Shown: positions 13,640 through 22,649 of the stretch, piece after piece
Numbering within the stretch: position 1 is the stretch's first letter
How the letters are laid out: every line of letters starts with the position of its first letter
NCBI RefSeq assembly: GCF_000017545.1
Contig: NC_009718.1
Coordinates: forward strand, 1,364,001-1,428,000
Reading direction: 5' to 3'
Origin: Fervidobacterium nodosum Rt17-B1
Lineage (GTDB): Bacteria > Thermotogota > Thermotogae > Thermotogales > Fervidobacteriaceae
Length of the DNA stretch: 64,000 nt
The notes under the pieces: model-generated
The model's input: the letters and a program-made list of their open reading frames with translations, nothing else
What the model was told of the DNA's origin: nothing
Database searches by the model: none
Translations under genes and position numbers: made by a program

Positions 13640-16549
13640 ATGATTCCTCTCTCATTAAATATTATATACATAATTTTAAAGATGAACATAGACTTGACTG
13701 CTTTTGGACTGATGGCAAGTATAATTATTCTTTTTTACGAATCTCAAAAAAAGTACGGATTAGATTTTAGAGAAGTAGCAAAGGAGATAACATTTGATTC
13801 TACTAATGATATGATAGTTCTTATTGATAAAGAAGAACACATTCTTAGTTACAATAAATCTTTTTCTTCAATGGTAAAAGAGTTTCTTGGTATAGAAGAA
13901 TTAGCTTACAAAAACATATCAGAGATTTTGTCACAAGAATGTATTTCCGTAATAAGAAATGGTTATGGCATTGTCGAAAAATTTGGTAGATATTTTCAAA
14001 TAAGTGTTGTTGATATTAAAGAAAAAGTTAAAAACTCAAAATTTGAAGGAAAAGCTGTCTTTTTCCATGAAATAACGGATATTAAAAAATTAGAAGAAGA
14101 AGTTATCGCTGAAAGTAAGAAATATCAAACACTCTTTGAATTTTCCCCTCTTGGAATTCTTGTAGAAGATTCTAATGGTAACATTTTAGATGTCAATCCA
14201 GAATTTTGTAAGATAAATTGTTTAAGAAAAGAAGAACTAATCGGTCAACATGTATCTATTCTCGCACCAAAGGAAGATTACGAACAGGTTATAAAAAATA
14301 TCAAAGAAATTATCTCTGGAAAAACCCTTATCCACACAGTTAGAAACCTGTCTCGTAGTGGAGAAGTAAAGTACCTTGAACTATACGAAAGAAAAATAAC
14401 ACTTCCTGATGGTAAAGATGGTATATTGTCTATCCAAAAAGATATAACAAAAATTGTTATGGCACAGAAGGTTATAAAATCGCTTGCAAAATACCAACAG
14501 ATAATTCTTCAACTTGCTCTAAACATTATAAACACACCTGTTGAAAAGATTGATAAAGAAATTAAAAGAGCAATTGAACTCATTGCAAAAGAATTAAACA
14601 CAAATAGAATTAGAGTCTATAAATTTTCAGCAGATGGCAGTTTTAATTCGATAAGTAACTGGTTTTATTCTAATAATCCTATTGAAAACACCTTCGTATC
14701 GTTTAACATTAAAGATATAAGTGGAAAAGAATTAGATGAACTAATGGCAGGTAAACAATTTTCAATAGCAAAACAAAATGTTTCAAATGAATTTATCAAA
14801 AAAATGTTTGGAGAAAATTCTATCTCACTCATTACTCCGATAAAAATAAACGAAAATGTTATAGGTTTCATAAGTGCAGCCTTTAAGGAAGATAGAGCGT
14901 TAACTGTTGCCGAAAAGAGGATTTTCTTGTTACTCGCGACGCTACTTGCAAACTCGGAAATCAGAAAAAAATACGAAGAAGAATTAATAAAAGCAAAACA
15001 AGAAGCTGAAAAGGCCAATCAAGCTAAAAGCATTTTCCTTGCTAATATGAGCCATGAGATAAGAACTCCTCTTAACGGAATAATAGGATTTACAAATTTA
15101 CTTAAAGAAACAAAACTTGATGAAAAACAAGAAAAGTACGTTTCGATAATTCTAAAGTCAAGTGAATTATTACTAGAAATAATCAATGATATCTTAGATC
15201 TGGCAAAAATTGAAAGTGGTAAATACCAACTTGAACCATTAGAAACAAATTTAAAGATGGAACTCCAAAGCTCACTATTACTATATGAAGCAAAGGCAAA
15301 AGAAAAAAATGTTGAATATGAAATAAGAATAGATAAAGAAATAAGCGATTGCTTAATACTTGATAGTGTAAGGTTGCAACAAGTTATGTTTAATCTCATA
15401 AACAACGCGATAAAATTTACTCCAGCCGGTGGCTCTGTAAAAGTTTTTGTAAAAAAGATTTCTGAAGATGAAGAGCATGAAAATATAAGATTTTCAGTAA
15501 TTGATACAGGAATAGGTATTCCAAAAGAAAAACTCGAAAAAATATTTGAACCTTTCGAACAGGCAAGTGTGTCCGTAACGAAAAAGTATGGTGGAACGGG
15601 GTTAGGTTTGGCTATAAGCAATTTAATAGTTAGTATGATGGGGTCAAAGATAATTGTAGAGAGCGAAGAAGAAAAAGGAAGTCATTTTTATTTTGATTTA
15701 AAATTAAAAAAGTGTTCTAAGAAAGAAATTACACAAGACATGAAAACAATAAAATCAAAAAAGTACAATGCAAAAGTATTAGTTGCTGAAGACTACGAAA
15801 TAAATAGGATACTTATAGAAGAAATACTAAACAAATACGATATAAAACCAGATTTTGCAGTAAATGGTAAAGAAGCCGTTGAGATGGCATTAAATAAAGA
15901 TTACGACATTATCTTTATGGATGTATTAATGCCAGAAATGGATGGTATAGAAGCAACAAAGAAAATAAAAGCGATAAAACCTAACCTTCCAATTATAGCA
16001 CTTACCGCACACGCATTAAAAAGTGTAAAAGAAGAAGTATTATCCGTTGGTATGAATGATTACATAACAAAACCTATAAAAATTGCTGATTTAGAAAGAG
16101 TTTTAAATAAATTCTGTAGTCATTTAGAATCGTCTGAAAAAAGTGAAAAAGAAGCGCGAATTTTTAATGCAAATATTGTTGGAGAAAAAAGAGAAATAAA
16201 CGAAATCGAAAAAGATATAGAAATAACTAAGCAAGAACAAGGTTTTGACGAAGAGTTTATGAAAGAATTAATCAAAATGTTTATAAATTCCACCAAAGAA
16301 AGCATTTTAAACATACGGAATGCTTTACCAAAAGTCGATTTTAAGACTATTCAAAGGGAAGCACATAGTATAAAAGGTGCAGCTAGGTCTCTTAACTTCA
16401 ATAGTATTGGAGAACTTGCTTATCAATTAGAAATAAAAGCAAAAGAAAAAGATGATTCGTTTGATTATGAAACTCATTTAACTCAGATAGAAGAAAAACT
16501 AAGAAACGTTATTAATTTTTTCAGAATAAAATACGAAAAGAATAATTAA
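13640..16549 (+). CDS. Hybrid sensor histidine kinase with PAS, GAF, receiver and HPt domains (C-terminal part of the broken 7TM kinase)
   Basis: Residues 1-45 are the last two TM helices of the 7TM sensor. Two PAS-like domains follow (about 50-155 and 160-278), then a GAF domain (about 290-450), HisKA with SHEIRTPLNG and phosphoacceptor His472, HATPase with N-box NLINNAIKF, DTGIGIP and GGTGLGLAIS (about 545-680), a receiver domain with Asp761 in FMDVLMPEMDG, and an HPt domain with His909 in EAHSIKGAA. This is a full multistep phosphorelay in one chain; no response regulator is adjacent. The ATG at 13640 is internal to the original gene and lacks a clear ribosome site, so expression of this piece alone is doubtful. 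The upstream part lies in 13071-13640 in other frames. The stop directly abuts the convergent cyuA stop. Confidence 0.85.
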   Translation: MIPLSLNIIYIILKMNIDLTAFGLMASIIILFYESQKKYGLDFREVAKEITFDSTNDMIVLIDKEEHILSYNKSFSSMVKEFLGIEELAYKNISEILSQECISVIRNGYGIVEKFGRYFQISVVDIKEKVKNSKFEGKAVFFHEITDIKKLEEEVIAESKKYQTLFEFSPLGILVEDSNGNILDVNPEFCKINCLRKEELIGQHVSILAPKEDYEQVIKNIKEIISGKTLIHTVRNLSRSGEVKYLELYERKITLPDGKDGILSIQKDITKIVMAQKVIKSLAKYQQIILQLALNIINTPVEKIDKEIKRAIELIAKELNTNRIRVYKFSADGSFNSISNWFYSNNPIENTFVSFNIKDISGKELDELMAGKQFSIAKQNVSNEFIKKMFGENSISLITPIKINENVIGFISAAFKEDRALTVAEKRIFLLLATLLANSEIRKKYEEELIKAKQEAEKANQAKSIFLANMSHEIRTPLNGIIGFTNLLKETKLDEKQEKYVSIILKSSELLLEIINDILDLAKIESGKYQLEPLETNLKMELQSSLLLYEAKAKEKNVEYEIRIDKEISDCLILDSVRLQQVMFNLINNAIKFTPAGGSVKVFVKKISEDEEHENIRFSVIDTGIGIPKEKLEKIFEPFEQASVSVTKKYGGTGLGLAISNLIVSMMGSKIIVESEEEKGSHFYFDLKLKKCSKKEITQDMKTIKSKKYNAKVLVAEDYEINRILIEEILNKYDIKPDFAVNGKEAVEMALNKDYDIIFMDVLMPEMDGIEATKKIKAIKPNLPIIALTAHALKSVKEEVLSVGMNDYITKPIKIADLERVLNKFCSHLESSEKSEKEARIFNANIVGEKREINEIEKDIEITKQEQGFDEEFMKELIKMFINSTKESILNIRNALPKVDFKTIQREAHSIKGAARSLNFNSIGELAYQLEIKAKEKDDSFDYETHLTQIEEKLRNVINFFRIKYEKNN

Positions 16550-17785
16550 CTAACAATGACCAATAAAATCAATGACATCTTGGTCAAATTGCCTTAGAGA
16601 TTTTGTTAATAGTTCAATTCTTCTAATAGTTTCTTCAACATCTTTTGCAGCAAAGCCATTTCCACATGGTATATTTGTGTCTTTAAGCGCCAATTTTGAA
16701 GCGTTCAGTGCCATTTGTGTACCTATACTTGCTTTCAGTGCACAGCCTCGTTTAGCTCCGTCGCAAGTCATACCAAAAAGCGTCGCTAAAACGTTATTTA
16801 TAGCATTTTTTATTTGCTCAGCGTTACCACCTGCAAGGTAAGTTATTGCAGCACTACTGCCAGCTGATGCTATGGATCCTGCACCGCACACAGGTGTTAA
16901 AACACCTGTGAACGCTTTTATGTAAGTTGTTACAAGAATACTTAACAAAACTGCCTTTTCTATTTTTTCTTCTGGCATTTCATTTTCCCTACCGTACAAT
17001 GTTGGGGGAACTATCGATGCTATACCCTGATTACCACTACCAGCTACAGTCATTATTGGTATCAATTCGCCATTCATTCTCTCATCAACACCAGCAGCAA
17101 CATATGCGGGTATTCCTTCTTCCAGTGCATATCCAAAATTCCCTTCTTTTTTTATTCCTTCCCTTGCAGCGTTAACATTGTATTTTATGCCTTCTTTTAC
17201 AACATTTACAACATCTAAATCAGGATTTTCAATGTATTCAAAGATATCGTTCAAAGAAATTGATTTAACCAAATCTTTCTTAAAATTAACACTCGTTTGA
17301 GTGTTTCTTATTTCATTCCCATCAACAACTATTTTGCTAATATTATCATGTGAATCAGTTATTTCAATCAACACTTCGTTATCTGCTTCAAGCTTTGTTT
17401 TGATATGGAGATTATACGAATTCTCATAGCTAACTCTTATTTTATCTTTCAATTCATAAGCTTTTGAAAGTACATGTGAATTCACATCTTTGAAAACTTG
17501 CAAGCCATATTCTGGTTTTCCTACAAGATACGCAAGAGCTATTGCGAGGTCAAATCCATGTAAGTGAGTACCAGGTATACCTACTTCTAAACCATTTTTA
17601 TATGTATTTCTGTCCATTATCACATCTATGCTTTTCAATACACCCCTCAAATACCCTTTCCCAACGGCAACCGACAAACCTACAGCAACAGGTTCCGTGC
17701 AGCCATACGATAATTTTACATTATCGAAAAATATCTCCCTGATTATACTTCTTTTTGAATTCTCTCCTTCTAAAAACTCAGACAT
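16550..17785 (-). CDS. cyuA: L-cysteine desulfidase family protein (UPF0597/CyuA), 411 aa
   Basis: Predicted Fe-S enzyme that splits L-cysteine to pyruvate, ammonia and sulfide (family: M. jannaschii cysteine desulfidase; E. coli CyuA/YhaM). Seen: LSYGCTEPVAVGL near the N-terminus, GSGNQGIA, TPVCGAGSIASAGSSAA and MTCDGAKRGCALK; the last three cysteines fit the ligands of the 4Fe-4S cluster. ATG at 17785 has GAAGGAGG 8 nt upstream and overlaps the end of metF by 8 nt, so it is part of the methionine operon. In this setting it could supply sulfide for homocysteine formation. A serine/other deaminase activity cannot be excluded. Confidence 0.85.
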   Translation of the reverse strand: MSEFLEGENSKRSIIREIFFDNVKLSYGCTEPVAVGLSVAVGKGYLRGVLKSIDVIMDRNTYKNGLEVGIPGTHLHGFDLAIALAYLVGKPEYGLQVFKDVNSHVLSKAYELKDKIRVSYENSYNLHIKTKLEADNEVLIEITDSHDNISKIVVDGNEIRNTQTSVNFKKDLVKSISLNDIFEYIENPDLDVVNVVKEGIKYNVNAAREGIKKEGNFGYALEEGIPAYVAAGVDERMNGELIPIMTVAGSGNQGIASIVPPTLYGRENEMPEEKIEKAVLLSILVTTYIKAFTGVLTPVCGAGSIASAGSSAAITYLAGGNAEQIKNAINNVLATLFGMTCDGAKRGCALKASIGTQMALNASKLALKDTNIPCGNGFAAKDVEETIRRIELLTKSLRQFDQDVIDFIGHC

Positions 17786-18719
17786 TTAAAATTCCTCCTT
17801 CTCTTAGTAACTTCAAAACCTTGCAAACTTCTTCCCCTCGTCCCATCGTAAAAATATGAACCCCCGGAGCATCTTTTTCAAGAAGATTTTTGATTAGTTC
17901 AACAGTAAAACGGACACCTATTTCAAATTCTTCACTTTCAGATTTAGCTTCTTCCATTTTTTCAACAAATTTTTGTGGAATATTCACGAAAAACTTCTTT
18001 GGAATAGAATAAATTGACTTCTTACTTACCACAGGTTTTACACCCGGTATAATCGGTATATTTATCCCCATACTTCGAGATTTTTCAACAAATTTTTCAT
18101 AAATTGCTGCATCAAAAACCATTTGAGTTATTATAAAATCAGCGCCATTATCAACTTTCTGTTTTAAAAACCTTAAATCAACGTCTAGATTCGGAGCTTC
18201 AAAATGCTTTTCTGGATATCCCGCAACTCCTATACAAAAATTTGTTGGTTTGGCTTCTGTGTAAAGGTATCTCCCATTGTTCATATCAGATATTTGCTTA
18301 ACCAAATCTGAAGCATATTTATAGTCACTCTTCGCTACAGATTTAACTTCTTCCCCACGCACTACAAAGACATTTTCAACACCCATTATAGACAAGTCTA
18401 TTAAAATATCCTCCATCTCAAATTTGTTCATACCTTTGCAAACCAAATGAGGAACAACATCGATATTGTACCTTTTCATCAAAGCGGCAGTCAAACCTAT
18501 TGTTCCTGGTCTTTTTATCTTTTGAACCTTAATTATTCCATTTTCCGTTTCTAAATAATCTATTTCAGACGGATGGCGCGTTATATTTATGAAAGATATG
18601 TTATAATCCATCAACTTATCTAAAGTGGCAAATATTTTTTCAACATCTTCTCCTCTCTTAGGAGGGATTATCTCTATCGAAACTATCTTTTCATTTCTTA
18701 ATTTTTCAACGATTTTCAA
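17778..18719 (-). CDS. metF: Methylenetetrahydrofolate reductase (313 aa)
   Basis: Reduces 5,10-methylene-THF to 5-methyl-THF, the methyl donor for methionine. TIM-barrel family signatures: SIEIIPPKRGEDVEKIF at the N-terminus, NITRHPSE, DVVPHLVCKG, ENVFVVRGE, FCIGVAGYPEKHFEAPN, GADFIITQMVFDA and IPIIPGVKPV. The chosen start is the TTG at 18719, 7 nt behind AGGGGGAG; a TTG at 18743 would include that site in the coding region. It lies 30 nt after the UPF0280 gene and overlaps cyuA. The C-terminus (residues about 285-313) is close to the usual length. Part of the attenuated methionine operon. Confidence 0.93.
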   Translation of the reverse strand: MKIVEKLRNEKIVSIEIIPPKRGEDVEKIFATLDKLMDYNISFINITRHPSEIDYLETENGIIKVQKIKRPGTIGLTAALMKRYNIDVVPHLVCKGMNKFEMEDILIDLSIMGVENVFVVRGEEVKSVAKSDYKYASDLVKQISDMNNGRYLYTEAKPTNFCIGVAGYPEKHFEAPNLDVDLRFLKQKVDNGADFIITQMVFDAAIYEKFVEKSRSMGINIPIIPGVKPVVSKKSIYSIPKKFFVNIPQKFVEKMEEAKSESEEFEIGVRFTVELIKNLLEKDAPGVHIFTMGRGEEVCKVLKLLREGGILNV

Positions 18720-18749
18720 CGTTTTGCTCCCCCTTCTTGCCAATATAAT

Positions 18750-19499
18750 CTATATTTCGAACCTCACATTCCCTATAACTCCCATTTTTCCATTAATTAT
18801 AATTACTACCCCATATATTACATCTTCCAAAAAACTTTTTGTGTATTCCAAGACATCTGTAATATCTCCGCTTATTTTTACCATATTTGAAAGTTTAGTT
18901 GCAAATCCATCTGCTATTAGTGAGTTTTTGGCTATAACTGTAACGATATCCGCATTACCAAAATTAAGAGAATGACCTATCTTTCCAGATGAACTACACA
19001 CACCAAATTCTCCAGAACTGAGAACTATAGACAATCGGTTAAATTCACTATCAAAGTTGGAGAATATTCCTATTCTTGTTTCATCGAACGAATTGATGTA
19101 TATATCACCGCCATTCTCAACGATAACTTTTTTACTTTTGTACTTCTCAATCAAATTTTTACCAACCAACTGAGAAAAGGCACCAGCTACACATGCCATC
19201 GGACCTACACCGGCAGTATTTGAAGCTTCTATCATTTTTTTAGCAATTTCTGGGGCATTGCCATCATATCCAATAGGTACCAAAGAAGTTTTAAATTCCT
19301 TATTTTTCCTTATATAGTCTTCCAACTCATTGTAAAGTCTTTTCACAGTTTCATACGTAAAATCGAGCATTTCAAGGTCAAAATTGTCAACTCCTACCCA
19401 GATATCCGTGTACTTGTACTTAACAAAAAAGCCTGTGATATCTTTTGAATAACTTTCCCTGTAAAACCTTTTAACAATAGGAATTTTACTTGATTTCAT
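18750..19499 (-). CDS. UPF0280 (COG2122, ApbE-like) protein of the reductive homocysteine pathway (249 aa)
   Basis: Family signatures: TAGVGPMACVAGAFSQLVG, VENGGDIYI, GVCSSSGKIGHSLNFGNADIVTV and LIADGFATKLSN. COG2122 proteins were linked genetically to sulfide-dependent homocysteine synthesis in Methanosarcina together with COG1900 (DUF39) and a ferredoxin-type protein; here it lies 21 nt after a DUF39-ferredoxin fusion, the same partnership. The biochemical role is not settled. The fold is related to ApbE flavin transferases, so a flavin or redox role is possible. ATG at 19499 has a GAGGGAT site. Confidence 0.85.
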   Translation of the reverse strand: MKSSKIPIVKRFYRESYSKDITGFFVKYKYTDIWVGVDNFDLEMLDFTYETVKRLYNELEDYIRKNKEFKTSLVPIGYDGNAPEIAKKMIEASNTAGVGPMACVAGAFSQLVGKNLIEKYKSKKVIVENGGDIYINSFDETRIGIFSNFDSEFNRLSIVLSSGEFGVCSSSGKIGHSLNFGNADIVTVIAKNSLIADGFATKLSNMVKISGDITDVLEYTKSFLEDVIYGVVIIINGKMGVIGNVRFEI

Positions 19500-19520
19500 T
19501 TAAAATCCCTCAATAATTTT

Positions 19521-20888
19521 TTAATTTTCTGATTTCTCGTAAGGTAATCTTATACCTTGAGGACAAGAATCCGAACACAATAGACAATAAGTACACTTTG
19601 AAGCATCGTATCTAACTTCTCTATTTTCATCAAAATAAAGTGCATTGGTACTACACAAACTAACACACGCGCCGCAATTCACACAAGTTTTCTCGATTTT
19701 ACTCTTCAAAGTTATATAGTTTTCTCTCATAGGTTCATCTACAATTTTTTTATCTGAAAGGCTTTTTAATTTTCTTTCCTCGTGGAGTTTTTCAACTGGA
19801 TTAGTCAAAAAGAACATACCTTCCTTTATCCAGTTTTTCAATATTTTAGAAATATCTCTAGCTTTATTCAAACTTGATAATGAACTTGTTTTAACTTTTT
19901 TACCATTTATTTCAACATATCCGCTTTGCAGTTCTTCATAATTAACTACTTTTATTGTTGGTTTATCAATTTTCGAATAGTCTTTAATTTCTGTTTGTAT
20001 GTCTCTGTTTGATAAACTAACATAATAAGCTATTTCTTCGTTTAATATGGGGATTGGAATCCCAACACCAACAAATAAAGTAACTCCATAATTTTTAAAG
20101 TACGCGCCTTTAATAAACTCCGTACTCATTTTTTTAGCATCCCCAACAAGTGCCAAGGTTCTTGAAGGTACAATTGGAATACCTTTGTCATTTATTTTAA
20201 CAACGTTTCTAAACTGAGTACCATACCATGAAACGTATCCTATACCACCACCTAAGAATATCCTTGTACCTACACCAATTGTAAGCATCTTCGGATCTTT
20301 TAGAAGAGGACTAAGCTCTCCAGAAGTTGAATAAGTTACATTTCCATAGTTTGGTAATAACTTACCCATGTAAGTGTAAATTGTTTCATCTGAGCTATTT
20401 GTTGCTGCAGCGTAATTTTGATAAGCATTTCTTGGGTTAAACAAGAAAAAATCATTTATCGTTTCTTTATTAATGTATGTTTTAAAATATTTTCCCGGAT
20501 AACAATCTGTACCTTTTCCCCAAGCTTCAAGTAATATATCTTCTCCCTTTATTAAAAGCTCAATTATATGTCCACCACCAAATGACTTATCATATTCAGA
20601 TTCTTGAGTGGCCCCAATATATCCGTCTACAGCAGCAATTCCTCCGTAAACTCCAACACCTCCTAAGTTTATCTTTTCCATCCTCATAGGTGGTAAAGTA
20701 TGCCCAAAGTTAATAAACGCACCGCTTGAACACATCGGAGCAAAAGTTCCTGTTGTAACGACGTCGACTTTCTTCGCAACCTCTTTTATGCCTTCTTCCT
20801 TAGCCATTTTAACAACTTCTTCAGCTGTTAAAACCACAATTTCACCTTTTGCTATTTTATTATTTATTTCTTCGATTGTTTTTGCCAT
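19521..20888 (-). CDS. DUF39 (COG1900) homocysteine biosynthesis protein fused to a 2[4Fe-4S] ferredoxin domain (455 aa)
   Basis: Predicted to make homocysteine from aspartate semialdehyde and a sulfide or persulfide sulfur, using ferredoxin-type electrons. The DUF39 part covers about residues 1-370, with Cys53 (in APMCSSGAF) and Cys129 (in GTDCYPGKYF) where the family's reactive cysteines are expected from memory of work on methanogens. The C-terminus (about 400-450) holds two clusters CVNCGACVSLC and CTYCLLCSDSC, i.e. a fused ferredoxin replacing the separate NIL-ferredoxin protein of methanogens. The gene starts 4 nt after aspartokinase, which begins the route to aspartate semialdehyde. 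ATG at 20888 with AAGGAGG 12 nt upstream. Confidence 0.88.
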   Translation of the reverse strand: MAKTIEEINNKIAKGEIVVLTAEEVVKMAKEEGIKEVAKKVDVVTTGTFAPMCSSGAFINFGHTLPPMRMEKINLGGVGVYGGIAAVDGYIGATQESEYDKSFGGGHIIELLIKGEDILLEAWGKGTDCYPGKYFKTYINKETINDFFLFNPRNAYQNYAAATNSSDETIYTYMGKLLPNYGNVTYSTSGELSPLLKDPKMLTIGVGTRIFLGGGIGYVSWYGTQFRNVVKINDKGIPIVPSRTLALVGDAKKMSTEFIKGAYFKNYGVTLFVGVGIPIPILNEEIAYYVSLSNRDIQTEIKDYSKIDKPTIKVVNYEELQSGYVEINGKKVKTSSLSSLNKARDISKILKNWIKEGMFFLTNPVEKLHEERKLKSLSDKKIVDEPMRENYITLKSKIEKTCVNCGACVSLCSTNALYFDENREVRYDASKCTYCLLCSDSCPQGIRLPYEKSEN

Positions 20889-20892
20889 AGTA

Positions 20893-22362
20893 TTAATTTA
20901 CCTCCTTAATTTGACTATCTTCATCTTCAAAAAATTCTTTGTGTACCAACTTAAATGCTTTTTCTCCATCTTTGGAATCTGTAATAAAGTAAATTGAAAC
21001 ATCTGAAGCTCCTGCTGATATCATCTCAACATTAATGCCTCCACGACTAACTGCTCCAAAAATTTTAGAAGCTATACCGTGGGCATCAAGCAACCCTTCA
21101 CCAACAACTGCTATTAATACCTTATCTTTTTTAAATTTTATTTCTTCTATCTCTTTTAATTTCAGACTTTCAGATAACTTCAAAACCTTATCTAAATCAC
21201 TCATGGATATGATTAAATTTATCGAAGTTTGAGAAGTAATCACAAACTTTATGTTCACACCACTTAAAGCCACACGTGAAGCTATTTCTCCAAGTATTCC
21301 AGGAACTCTTCCAAAATTGTGTCCTTTGAATTGAACAATTGCGATGTCGTTTGTCATAGAAACACTTTTTATGCAATTAGCCGTGTAATCTCTAATATGC
21401 TCTAATTCATTTCCTTCACTATAATCTTTTATTACTGTAAAATTGATACGATTGTCTAATAACAATTCATAACTTTCCAACTTTTTTAAATCTTCGATAC
21501 TACAAATATACAATGGAATGGATTTTAACCTTAAAGGTTCTACTGCGCTATGATGAAGTACTTTCGAACCAAAATAAGATAATTCATCAGCTTCTTCGTA
21601 ATTTAGCATTCTTACAATCTTAGCGTTTGGCGTTATTTTTGGGTCTCCGGTAAGGAAACCTAGAACATCTTTAACGAGAATCACAGAATCCGCATCTAAA
21701 CAATATCCTAAACTAGTTGCAGTATAGTCACTTCCACCACGTCCAAGTATTGTAATATCACCATTGGTAACTGACTTACCGTAAAAACCAGGTACTATAA
21801 AATCACCACTTTGCCATTCACTAATGCTTTCAGCTAGAGCAGATTTACTCTTTTCTAATAATACACTTGAATTACCATATCGACCATCTGTGATTAGAAA
21901 ATTTTCTGGATATGCGATCTTAAATTTCATTCCATATTCTAGAAGTAACTTTTCCATTATAACAGCGCTCCATCTTTCTCCGGAACTAACCACCTTGTCA
22001 TATACAAAATCTGGAACTCTGCCTATCATTTTTGAAGCGTAAAGCAAATTTTTTAGGGAATAAATCTCTTCTTTAATCAGATACATATCTTCTTCGGTAA
22101 AATTTGCAAATTTCAAGTGATAATTGTGAATGTCATTTAAAAAAGAATCGATATTTAAATTTGTTATATTTTTTAAAGCCTCTATAAGTTTATTTGTTAT
22201 CCCCTTTAGTGCACTTACAACGATAACAAGTTGATGATCTTTAAAAATTTTATTTTTCAAACTAACTATAATCTTTGAAATATCAACTAGGCTTTCTGGA
22301 GAGTCTAAAATAGATCCCCCAATTTTGATAATTTGAAATCTCCTTTTCCATGTTTGATTCAC
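20893..22362 (-). CDS. Aspartokinase with two C-terminal ACT domains (489 aa)
   Basis: Phosphorylates aspartate, the first step toward aspartate semialdehyde. Kinase motifs: IIKIGGSIL near the N-terminus, VVSSGERWSAVIM, ITDGRYGNSS, VPGFYGKSVTNGDITILGRGGSDYTAT and KVLHHSAVEPL. ACT domains at about residues 330-395 and 405-470 point to feedback control by an amino acid. GTG start at 22362, 9 nt behind AAAAGGAGG. It is the first structural gene after the terminator of the Met-rich leader at 22422-22586. No aspartate semialdehyde dehydrogenase is in the window. Confidence 0.93.
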   Translation of the reverse strand: MNQTWKRRFQIIKIGGSILDSPESLVDISKIIVSLKNKIFKDHQLVIVVSALKGITNKLIEALKNITNLNIDSFLNDIHNYHLKFANFTEEDMYLIKEEIYSLKNLLYASKMIGRVPDFVYDKVVSSGERWSAVIMEKLLLEYGMKFKIAYPENFLITDGRYGNSSVLLEKSKSALAESISEWQSGDFIVPGFYGKSVTNGDITILGRGGSDYTATSLGYCLDADSVILVKDVLGFLTGDPKITPNAKIVRMLNYEEADELSYFGSKVLHHSAVEPLRLKSIPLYICSIEDLKKLESYELLLDNRINFTVIKDYSEGNELEHIRDYTANCIKSVSMTNDIAIVQFKGHNFGRVPGILGEIASRVALSGVNIKFVITSQTSINLIISMSDLDKVLKLSESLKLKEIEEIKFKKDKVLIAVVGEGLLDAHGIASKIFGAVSRGGINVEMISAGASDVSIYFITDSKDGEKAFKLVHKEFFEDEDSQIKEVN

Positions 22363-22421: not shown

Positions 22422-22456
22422 AAAAAAAGCGGTCGGGTTTCTTCAACCCGACCGCT
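22422..22456 (-). terminator. Attenuator terminator upstream of aspartokinase
   Basis: On the minus strand AGCGGTCGGGTT (22456-22445) and AACCCGACCGCT (22439-22428) form a perfect 12-bp G+C-rich stem with a 5-nt loop, followed by seven Ts (22428-22422). It lies 60 nt before the aspartokinase start and 29 nt after the leader stop codon, so transcription of the operon has to pass it. Confidence 0.92.
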
Positions 22457-22510
22457 GGTTTTTTGTAACAGCAAAATGGTGTACCTATAATTTCCAGCGG
22501 TCGGTACACC
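22447..22510 (-). promoter_or_regulatory. Antiterminator and pause hairpin of the methionine attenuator
   Basis: Alternative pairings on the minus-strand RNA. Pause hairpin: GGTGTACC (22510-22503) with GGTACACC (22485-22478), 8 perfect bp. Antiterminator: CCGACCGCTGG (22504-22494) with CCAGCGGTCGG (22458-22448), 11 perfect bp, using the 5' arm of the terminator. The leader peptide ends at 22485, so a ribosome finishing translation would cover the antiterminator's 5' arm, while one waiting at the Met codons (22529-22512) would block the pause hairpin. This is the arrangement of trp- and his-type attenuators. Confidence 0.85.
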
Positions 22511-22586
22511 ACATCATCATAGCCATCATATTAACATTTATCGTAACGATATTCATAAGAGAATATTTTTCTTTTAGCTTAGACAC
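22485..22586 (-). CDS. Methionine-rich leader peptide of the aspartokinase-homocysteine-metF operon (33 aa)
   Basis: A short reading frame starting with GTG at 22586 behind GAGGTGAT and ending with TAG at 22487-22485. The central part reads NMMAMMMWCT: five Met codons in six, at residues 20-21 and 23-25, plus Met11. The Met run lies just before the competing hairpins of the attenuator and the stop codon lies inside them. The downstream genes make methionine, so the peptide most likely works as a sensor of charged Met-tRNA through ribosome stalling rather than as a product. An internal ATG at 22556 would give a 23-residue version with the same Met codons. Confidence 0.85.
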   Translation of the reverse strand: MSKLKEKYSLMNIVTINVNMMAMMMWCTDRWKL

Positions 22587-22621: not shown

Positions 22622-22649
22622 ATTATATAACAATTACTCGAAAAATCAA
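22622..22649 (-). promoter_or_regulatory. Promoter of the methionine leader transcript
   Basis: Minus-strand TTGATT (22649-22644) and TATAAT (22627-22622) with a 16-bp spacer. Transcription would start near 22615, about 20 nt before the leader ribosome site, giving a leader RNA of about 190 nt up to the terminator. Confidence 0.75.

Follow-up and report, generated by a model that had tools for sequence, protein, structure and literature searches.

How does Fervidobacterium nodosum Rt17-B1, a heat-loving anaerobe of the order Thermotogales, form homocysteine for methionine synthesis, and how are the genes for this controlled? The question is raised by five tightly packed genes in the window, by which we mean the whole 64,000-nucleotide stretch analyzed here (contig NC_009718.1, positions 1,364,001 to 1,428,000). 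They encode an aspartokinase, a DUF39 (COG1900) protein fused to a ferredoxin, a COG2122 protein, MetF, and an L-cysteine desulfidase (table 1), and an original prediction made from the letters of the window had read them as a reductive homocysteine operon with a methionine-responsive leader. We computed the gene content, the pathway genes present in and absent from the genome (a single contig of 1.95 Mb, 99.67% complete), the conservation of the operon with MetH in relatives, the conserved leader, and its covarying alternative hairpins. Taken together, these make it very probable that this is the methionine operon of the organism, in which DUF39-dependent sulfuration to homocysteine is combined with attenuation at a methionine-codon leader. 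The DUF39 pathway is already known from other anaerobes, namely methanogens and Desulfovibrio; the fused enzyme and the methionine-codon switch look new.

Gene Content of the Operon

All five open reading frames (ORFs) are found on the minus strand between 22362 and 16550, spaced in order by 4 nt, 21 nt, and 6 nt, followed by an 8-nt overlap. The third gap had been given as 30 nt in the original prediction, a value obtained only if MetF starts at a codon later than the first TTG; the other spacings stand.

The fusion of DUF39 and ferredoxin in one chain was recovered as predicted. The HcyBio domain (PF01837) matches residues 18–361 with 478 bits, against a curated cutoff of 26.2, and a C-terminal 2[4Fe-4S] ferredoxin domain occupies residues 398–446, its eight cysteines being conserved across the Thermotogales. 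In an alignment of 52 diverse homologues, archaeal ones included, Cys53 and Cys129 are invariant. The L-aspartate semialdehyde sulfurtransferase (L-ASST) of archaea has two nearly universal cysteines, which in Methanosarcina acetivorans MA1821 are Cys54 (essential) and Cys131 (PMC12068725); mapped by position, without aligning MA1821 itself, Cys53 and Cys129 would correspond to these two. Profile searches found neither a NIL nor a CBS domain in the fusion protein, and no NIL domain anywhere in the genome (control matches in eight genomes). The structure of the fusion was predicted with a predicted local distance difference test score (pLDDT) of 93.9, and that of the DUF39 domain alone (window 19803–20888) with a pLDDT of 95.9. 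No solved DUF39 structure was found by sequence search, and a single search of the predicted domain against solved structures in the PDB returned zero fold matches of meaningful score, a negative that does not by itself establish a new fold.

For the third protein, Pfam gave no match. Against PRK04334 it scores up to 232 bits, below the 271-bit cutoff, and matches PDB 2o34, labelled "hypothetical protein," with an E value of 3e-28; we take both PRK04334 and 2o34 to be members of the COG2122 family. Its Cys168 is present in 84 of 91 homologues. The fifth protein matches the solved L-cysteine desulfidases 9he0 and 9fsl end to end at E values of about 1e-37 (9he0_A: 1.7e-37, residues 9–407), and the four aligned cysteines shared with 9he0 are retained. 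Unlike those enzymes, it is encoded beside a homocysteine operon, a position found only in its own genus (this genome and five of the six DUF39-positive congeners), and in relatives the gene is set off by 38–141 nt. It is a genus-level addition that probably supplies sulfide from cysteine. Of the predicted link between cysteine breakdown and methionine synthesis, the identity of the desulfidase holds; given this restricted and spaced placement, its role as a sulfide donor for homocysteine stays putative.

Homocysteine Pathway Genes in the Genome

A profile search that was positive in control genomes found no MetA in the genome. MetX was likewise not found, the only signal being a 20-bit partial match to TIGR01392 against a 500-bit cutoff; it covers 52 of 351 positions within a 569-aa frame and was rejected. 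It should be noted that no control genome exceeds this strict cutoff, but nine give matches. No member of the MetB/MetC/MetY family (PF01053) was found either, the genome giving only partial matches of 19–37 bits, whereas true members in relatives exceed 370 bits. Of the seven PF01053 matches, the four that were checked proved to be other pyridoxal phosphate enzymes (aminotransferases and a glycine dehydrogenase subunit). Homoserine dehydrogenase was not found by profile search (controls positive), and no threonine synthase occurs among the PALP-family matches of the genome, which are CysK, OrtB, and a TrpB-like enzyme; with neither of these two found, the organism is predicted to be a threonine auxotroph or to make threonine by an unusual route.

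Present in the genome are asd, CysK, and MetH, the last at 846 kb, unlinked to the operon, as a 780-aa protein with homocysteine, pterin, and B12 domains. The only asd, with a separate 400-aa aspartokinase, belongs to a lysine operon at about 77.4–83.8 kb (L073:3380-9812; here and below, L numbers denote loci and G numbers genomes, G000 being the genome of F. nodosum itself). This operon has the order asd-dapF-dapA-dapB-dapD-aspartokinase-aminotransferase, with gene names read from the sequences. As far as recognised genes go, aspartate semialdehyde would lead only to lysine and, via DUF39, to homocysteine. The genome thus has the content that had been expected, with metA, metX, and metB/metY not found and asd and metH in place, and it agrees with the proposed methionine synthesis without activated homoserine esters, homoserine dehydrogenase also being undetected. 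Because MetA, MetX, MetB/MetC/MetY, and homoserine dehydrogenase were not found, DUF39-dependent sulfuration is the only recognisable homocysteine route in the genome.

Near MetH lies a gene (L061:4258-4818) whose 186-aa product has no match in Pfam and which accompanies MetH in the Thermotogales. Because MetH here is without a reactivation domain and this gene tracks MetH, the 186-aa protein is a candidate B12 reactivation partner.

Conservation of the Operon in Relatives

The COG2122 gene (UPF0280) follows DUF39 in 24 of 24 DUF39-positive relatives. Aspartokinase precedes and MetF follows DUF39 in all of them except at L041, a diverged copy; L057 ends at a contig edge, and its aspartokinase cannot be judged. 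This arrangement is not due to chance. In g4 and g5 genomes the operon runs on into the gene for the 186-aa protein and MetH, and in the second family (f2) the same two genes are placed at the operon front. Nearly the whole route from aspartate to methionine, asd apart, is therefore one operon in two families, which strongly supports the pathway assignment of the original prediction, as do the genome content and the methionine leader described below. The usual order in other phyla is DUF39, then a ferredoxin encoded as an ORF of its own, then UPF0280 (67 of 80 loci), and this ferredoxin ORF is a NIL-ferredoxin in all three cases tested. A fused DUF39-ferredoxin without NIL was seen in the Thermotogales and on one Mesoaciditogaceae contig; longer DUF39 frames occur in a few other phyla.

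Five relatives (G014, G016, G018, G019, and G039) have neither DUF39 nor strong PF01053 enzymes and are predicted to be methionine auxotrophs or to use another homocysteine route. At L054 (genome G001, same genus), the operon copy is f2-like, with MetH attached and without leader or cysteine desulfidase, possibly the result of horizontal displacement.

A Methionine-Codon Leader Ahead of the Operon

The predicted methionine-responsive leader is real and lies at 22586-22428, ahead of the five genes and outside the interval for which it had been noted; it is kept in relatives, and its antiterminator covaries. The end of the leader peptide, also given as MMAMMMWCTDRWKL, overlaps this covarying antiterminator. 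Homologous methionine-rich leaders were found in seven more genomes (L043, L044, L046, L049, L052, L053, and L055), with endings of the MMAMMMWRTDR-, MMAMMMRCTDR-, or MMPMMMWCTDR-type and the same hairpins, and MMIM-type leaders in four g4/g5 genomes (L056, L058, L059, and L060), so that, with this genome counted, 12 genomes from four genera have the methionine run, frame, and alternative hairpins in this position. Four f2 genomes (L038, L045, L047, and L050) have M-I-M leaders and a terminator at the operon head; no methionine leader was found directly upstream of the f2 aspartokinase, because the f2 operon begins with the MetH genes. At least four methionines in seven codons are reached by 10 of the 11 real leaders tested (L060 falls short), compared with 0–2 of 1000 dinucleotide shuffles per leader.

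The antiterminator consists of 11 pairs, 22504-22494 with 22458-22448, and 96.6% of cells are paired. Four of the 11 pairs have changed on both sides, a covariation score that was reached by 0 of 500 shuffles and is destroyed by sliding the register. Antiterminator and terminator are mutually exclusive via the common segment 22448-22458. Masked equilibrium folding agrees with the switch only in part: the antiterminator forms only with Met 4 in the ribosomal A site, and the terminator with Met 1, Met 2, or the stop codon but also with Met 3 or Met 5. Transcription of the operon is apparently under ribosome-mediated attenuation.

Searched with a model of the leader, eight genomes each yielded a single match above 99 bits, located at the operon every time. 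One extra match, in G020, lies on that genome's own operon leader and scores no better than ordinary terminators; the other extra matches that were read (below 33 bits) are ordinary terminators at gene ends. No match to any Rfam model, SAM riboswitches and T-boxes included, exceeded the gathering score in the 64-kb window, nothing credible was returned at that score on ten related loci, and no methionine-related Rfam match occurs in the leader at E 10. Weak L20_leader and sRNA matches in the leader reflect only the terminator hairpin. In G007, an IS110-like transposase ORF (L049:3190-4407) lies between an intact methionine attenuator and the aspartokinase gene, splitting the switch from the operon.

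Table 1. Coordinates of the Operon Genes and Leader Elements in the Window
Feature	Coordinates	Strand	Evidence
Candidate sigma-70-type promoter, TTGATT-16-TATAAT	22622..22649	-	Consensus scan only, 10/12 matches
Shine-Dalgarno-like GAGGTGA	22597-22591	-	Ahead of leader ORF
Leader peptide ORF, GTG start, 33 aa, end NVNMMAMMMWCTDRWKL	22485..22586	-	Homologous leaders in relatives
Control codons ATG ATG GCT ATG ATG ATG	22512..22529	-	Sequence and dinucleotide shuffles
Hairpin GGTGTACC/GGTACACC, would hide antiterminator arm in its loop	22478..22510	-	Folding
Antiterminator 5' arm, inside leader ORF past the Met codons	22494..22504	-	Covariation
Switching segment, shared by antiterminator (3' arm) and terminator (5' arm)	22448..22458	-	Covariation
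Intrinsic terminator	22428..22456	-	Stem of 12 bp, 5-nt loop, and T run
Aspartokinase, 489 aa with ACT domains; the genome's other isozyme is in the lysine operon	20893..22362	-	AA_kinase and ACT profile matches
DUF39/HcyBio (COG1900)-2[4Fe-4S] ferredoxin fusion, putative L-ASST	19521..20888	-	Profile matches, alignment
COG2122/UPF0280 protein, putative partner that donates sulfur (persulfide)	18750..19499	-	PDB 2o34 match, sub-cutoff PRK04334 match
MetF, methylenetetrahydrofolate reductase	17778..18743	-	MTHFR profile match
L-cysteine desulfidase (UPF0597/CyuA type)	16550..17785	-	9he0/9fsl matches, shared cysteines kept

Proposed Function and Comparison with Known Systems

Judged from its sequence, the putative DUF39-ferredoxin enzyme appears to form homocysteine from aspartate semialdehyde and sulfide in a single reductive step. 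The following scheme is inferred with respect to catalysis, the routes of sulfur and electrons, and regulation in the cell. The aspartokinase of the operon and the single Asd of the lysine operon would make aspartate semialdehyde; the DUF39 domain would take sulfur on Cys53, aided by the COG2122 protein, and pass it to the aldehyde, and reduction of the intermediate to homocysteine would draw its electrons from the fused 2[4Fe-4S] ferredoxin. Methyl-tetrahydrofolate would come from MetF, and with it the unlinked B12-dependent MetH would methylate homocysteine; in this genus the cysteine desulfidase would probably add sulfide from cysteine. Homoserine would not be an intermediate, since the searches detected no homoserine dehydrogenase. 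If charged Met-tRNA runs short, the ribosome would stall at the methionine codons near the leader end, freeing 22504-22494 to form the antiterminator; when methionine is plentiful, it would run on to the stop codon, allowing the terminator (22456-22428) to form.

Homocysteine synthesis with DUF39, a ferredoxin-type protein, and COG2122, the background of the original prediction, is indeed known from methanogens. Like the L-ASST of M. acetivorans (MA1821/MA1822) with MA1715 (COG2122), the system described here has a COG1900a/DUF39 protein with two cysteines and ferredoxin and COG2122 partners; unlike it, DUF39 and ferredoxin form one chain, in one operon with aspartokinase and MetF, and neither the NIL nor the CBS domains reported in the archaeal enzyme (for feedback by methionine and S-adenosylmethionine, respectively) are present. 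The bacterial setting named in the original prediction is not what is new, the pathway being already genetically established in Desulfovibrio, where methionine rescues strains mutated in DUF39, NIL/ferredoxin, or COG2122 and homoserine dehydrogenase is dispensable for methionine (PMC5764234). Both systems are bacterial and reductive, and homoserine is not an intermediate. In Desulfovibrio, however, DUF39 and NIL/ferredoxin are separate genes, distant from each other by locus tag, and a homoserine dehydrogenase is retained for threonine, whereas F. nodosum has a fused protein in one operon, no detected homoserine dehydrogenase, and a methionine attenuator.

The leader resembles classical attenuators (trp, his, leu, thr, phe, ilv, and cys) in being short, with control codons, and in that the position of the ribosome picks antiterminator or terminator; it differs from them in its control codon, methionine, and its host, the Thermotogales. 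No report of a methionine-specific leader-peptide attenuator was found in the open-licence literature searched. A survey of actinobacteria reported no conserved RNA structure for methionine operons and named S-box riboswitches as the solution elsewhere (PMC1262725), and the leader peptides treated in an excerpt of PMC2965389 are for other amino acids, with none for methionine. Because the NIL and CBS domains are absent and a methionine-sensing leader is present, our data suggest that feedback control has moved from the enzyme to transcription. We lean, with some reserve, towards the wider view that the Thermotogales evolved a methionine-codon attenuator for a near-complete aspartate-to-methionine operon, feedback having moved from protein to leader translation, and that this is the first methionine-specific ribosome-mediated attenuator. 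If true, it adds methionine to the amino acids sensed through leader translation, and it is directly testable by reporter. The enzyme itself matters in two ways: in a genome without a detected homoserine branch, no way to homocysteine other than reductive sulfuration is visible, and a single-chain DUF39-ferredoxin from a thermophile is a practical in vitro target in a family whose sulfur form and electron number are still open.

Alternative Explanations

Several observations weigh against reading the locus as a methionine operon under attenuation. Across 37 relatives, DUF39 and PF01053 enzymes are only weakly anticorrelated (six have both, five neither; Fisher P 0.038, which overstates independence, since the compared genomes are related). 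The sulfur donor and the electron number are not fixed by homology, and both are open in PMC12068725. No methionine leader was found in four operon-carrying genomes of the f2 genus g10, nor at L037 or L054, and in the masked folding a ribosome with Met 3 or Met 5 in its A site leaves the terminator favored at equilibrium.

The alternative that survives best, possible although rather unlikely, accepts the pathway and holds that methionine is mainly imported, the operon having a minor or salvage role and the desulfidase serving cysteine catabolism or detoxification (e.g., on cysteine-rich protein). Beyond the genus the desulfidase indeed stands outside the operon, in relatives it is spaced by 38–141 nt, and the five relatives without either homocysteine route indicate that methionine uptake is probably common in the order; however, the conservation of a near-full aspartate-to-methionine gene set with a methionine switch indicates that the operon is used when methionine is short.

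We regard it as very unlikely that the leader is no translated attenuator, with a terminator that ends another transcript or acts constitutively and a methionine run that is coincidence. Runs of methionine codons do arise by chance (the genome has one copy of the pattern ATGATGNNNATGATG and one of its reversed control), and read on the opposite strand the hairpin is a candidate terminator as well, but the run, frame, and alternative hairpins are kept across the four genera, shorter M-I-M leaders stand at the operon head in the second family, which has a different gene order, shuffles almost never yield such an ORF, and the antiterminator covaries. That the fusion makes another thiol, by coenzyme M-like aldehyde sulfuration as with the COG1900d protein MMP16, with methionine coming from elsewhere, is the least probable reading of all: MMP16 likewise combines COG1900 and ferredoxin domains (PMC12068725) and the only COG1900-type NCBIfam match of the fusion is methan_mark_16, but that match is far under its cutoff (106 vs. 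364 bits), whereas PF01837, used for COG1900a in PMC12068725, matches strongly, the MMP16 ferredoxin is inserted within COG1900 with differently placed cysteines and here is C-terminal, with Cys53 and Cys129 fitting the L-ASST pattern, and the operon has MetF, a methionine-codon leader, and in relatives also MetH.

Neighboring Gene

Downstream of the operon, a hybrid histidine kinase gene (window 13640-16549, plus strand) is convergent with the cysteine desulfidase gene, their ends abutting with no gap, and this neighborhood is kept within the genus.

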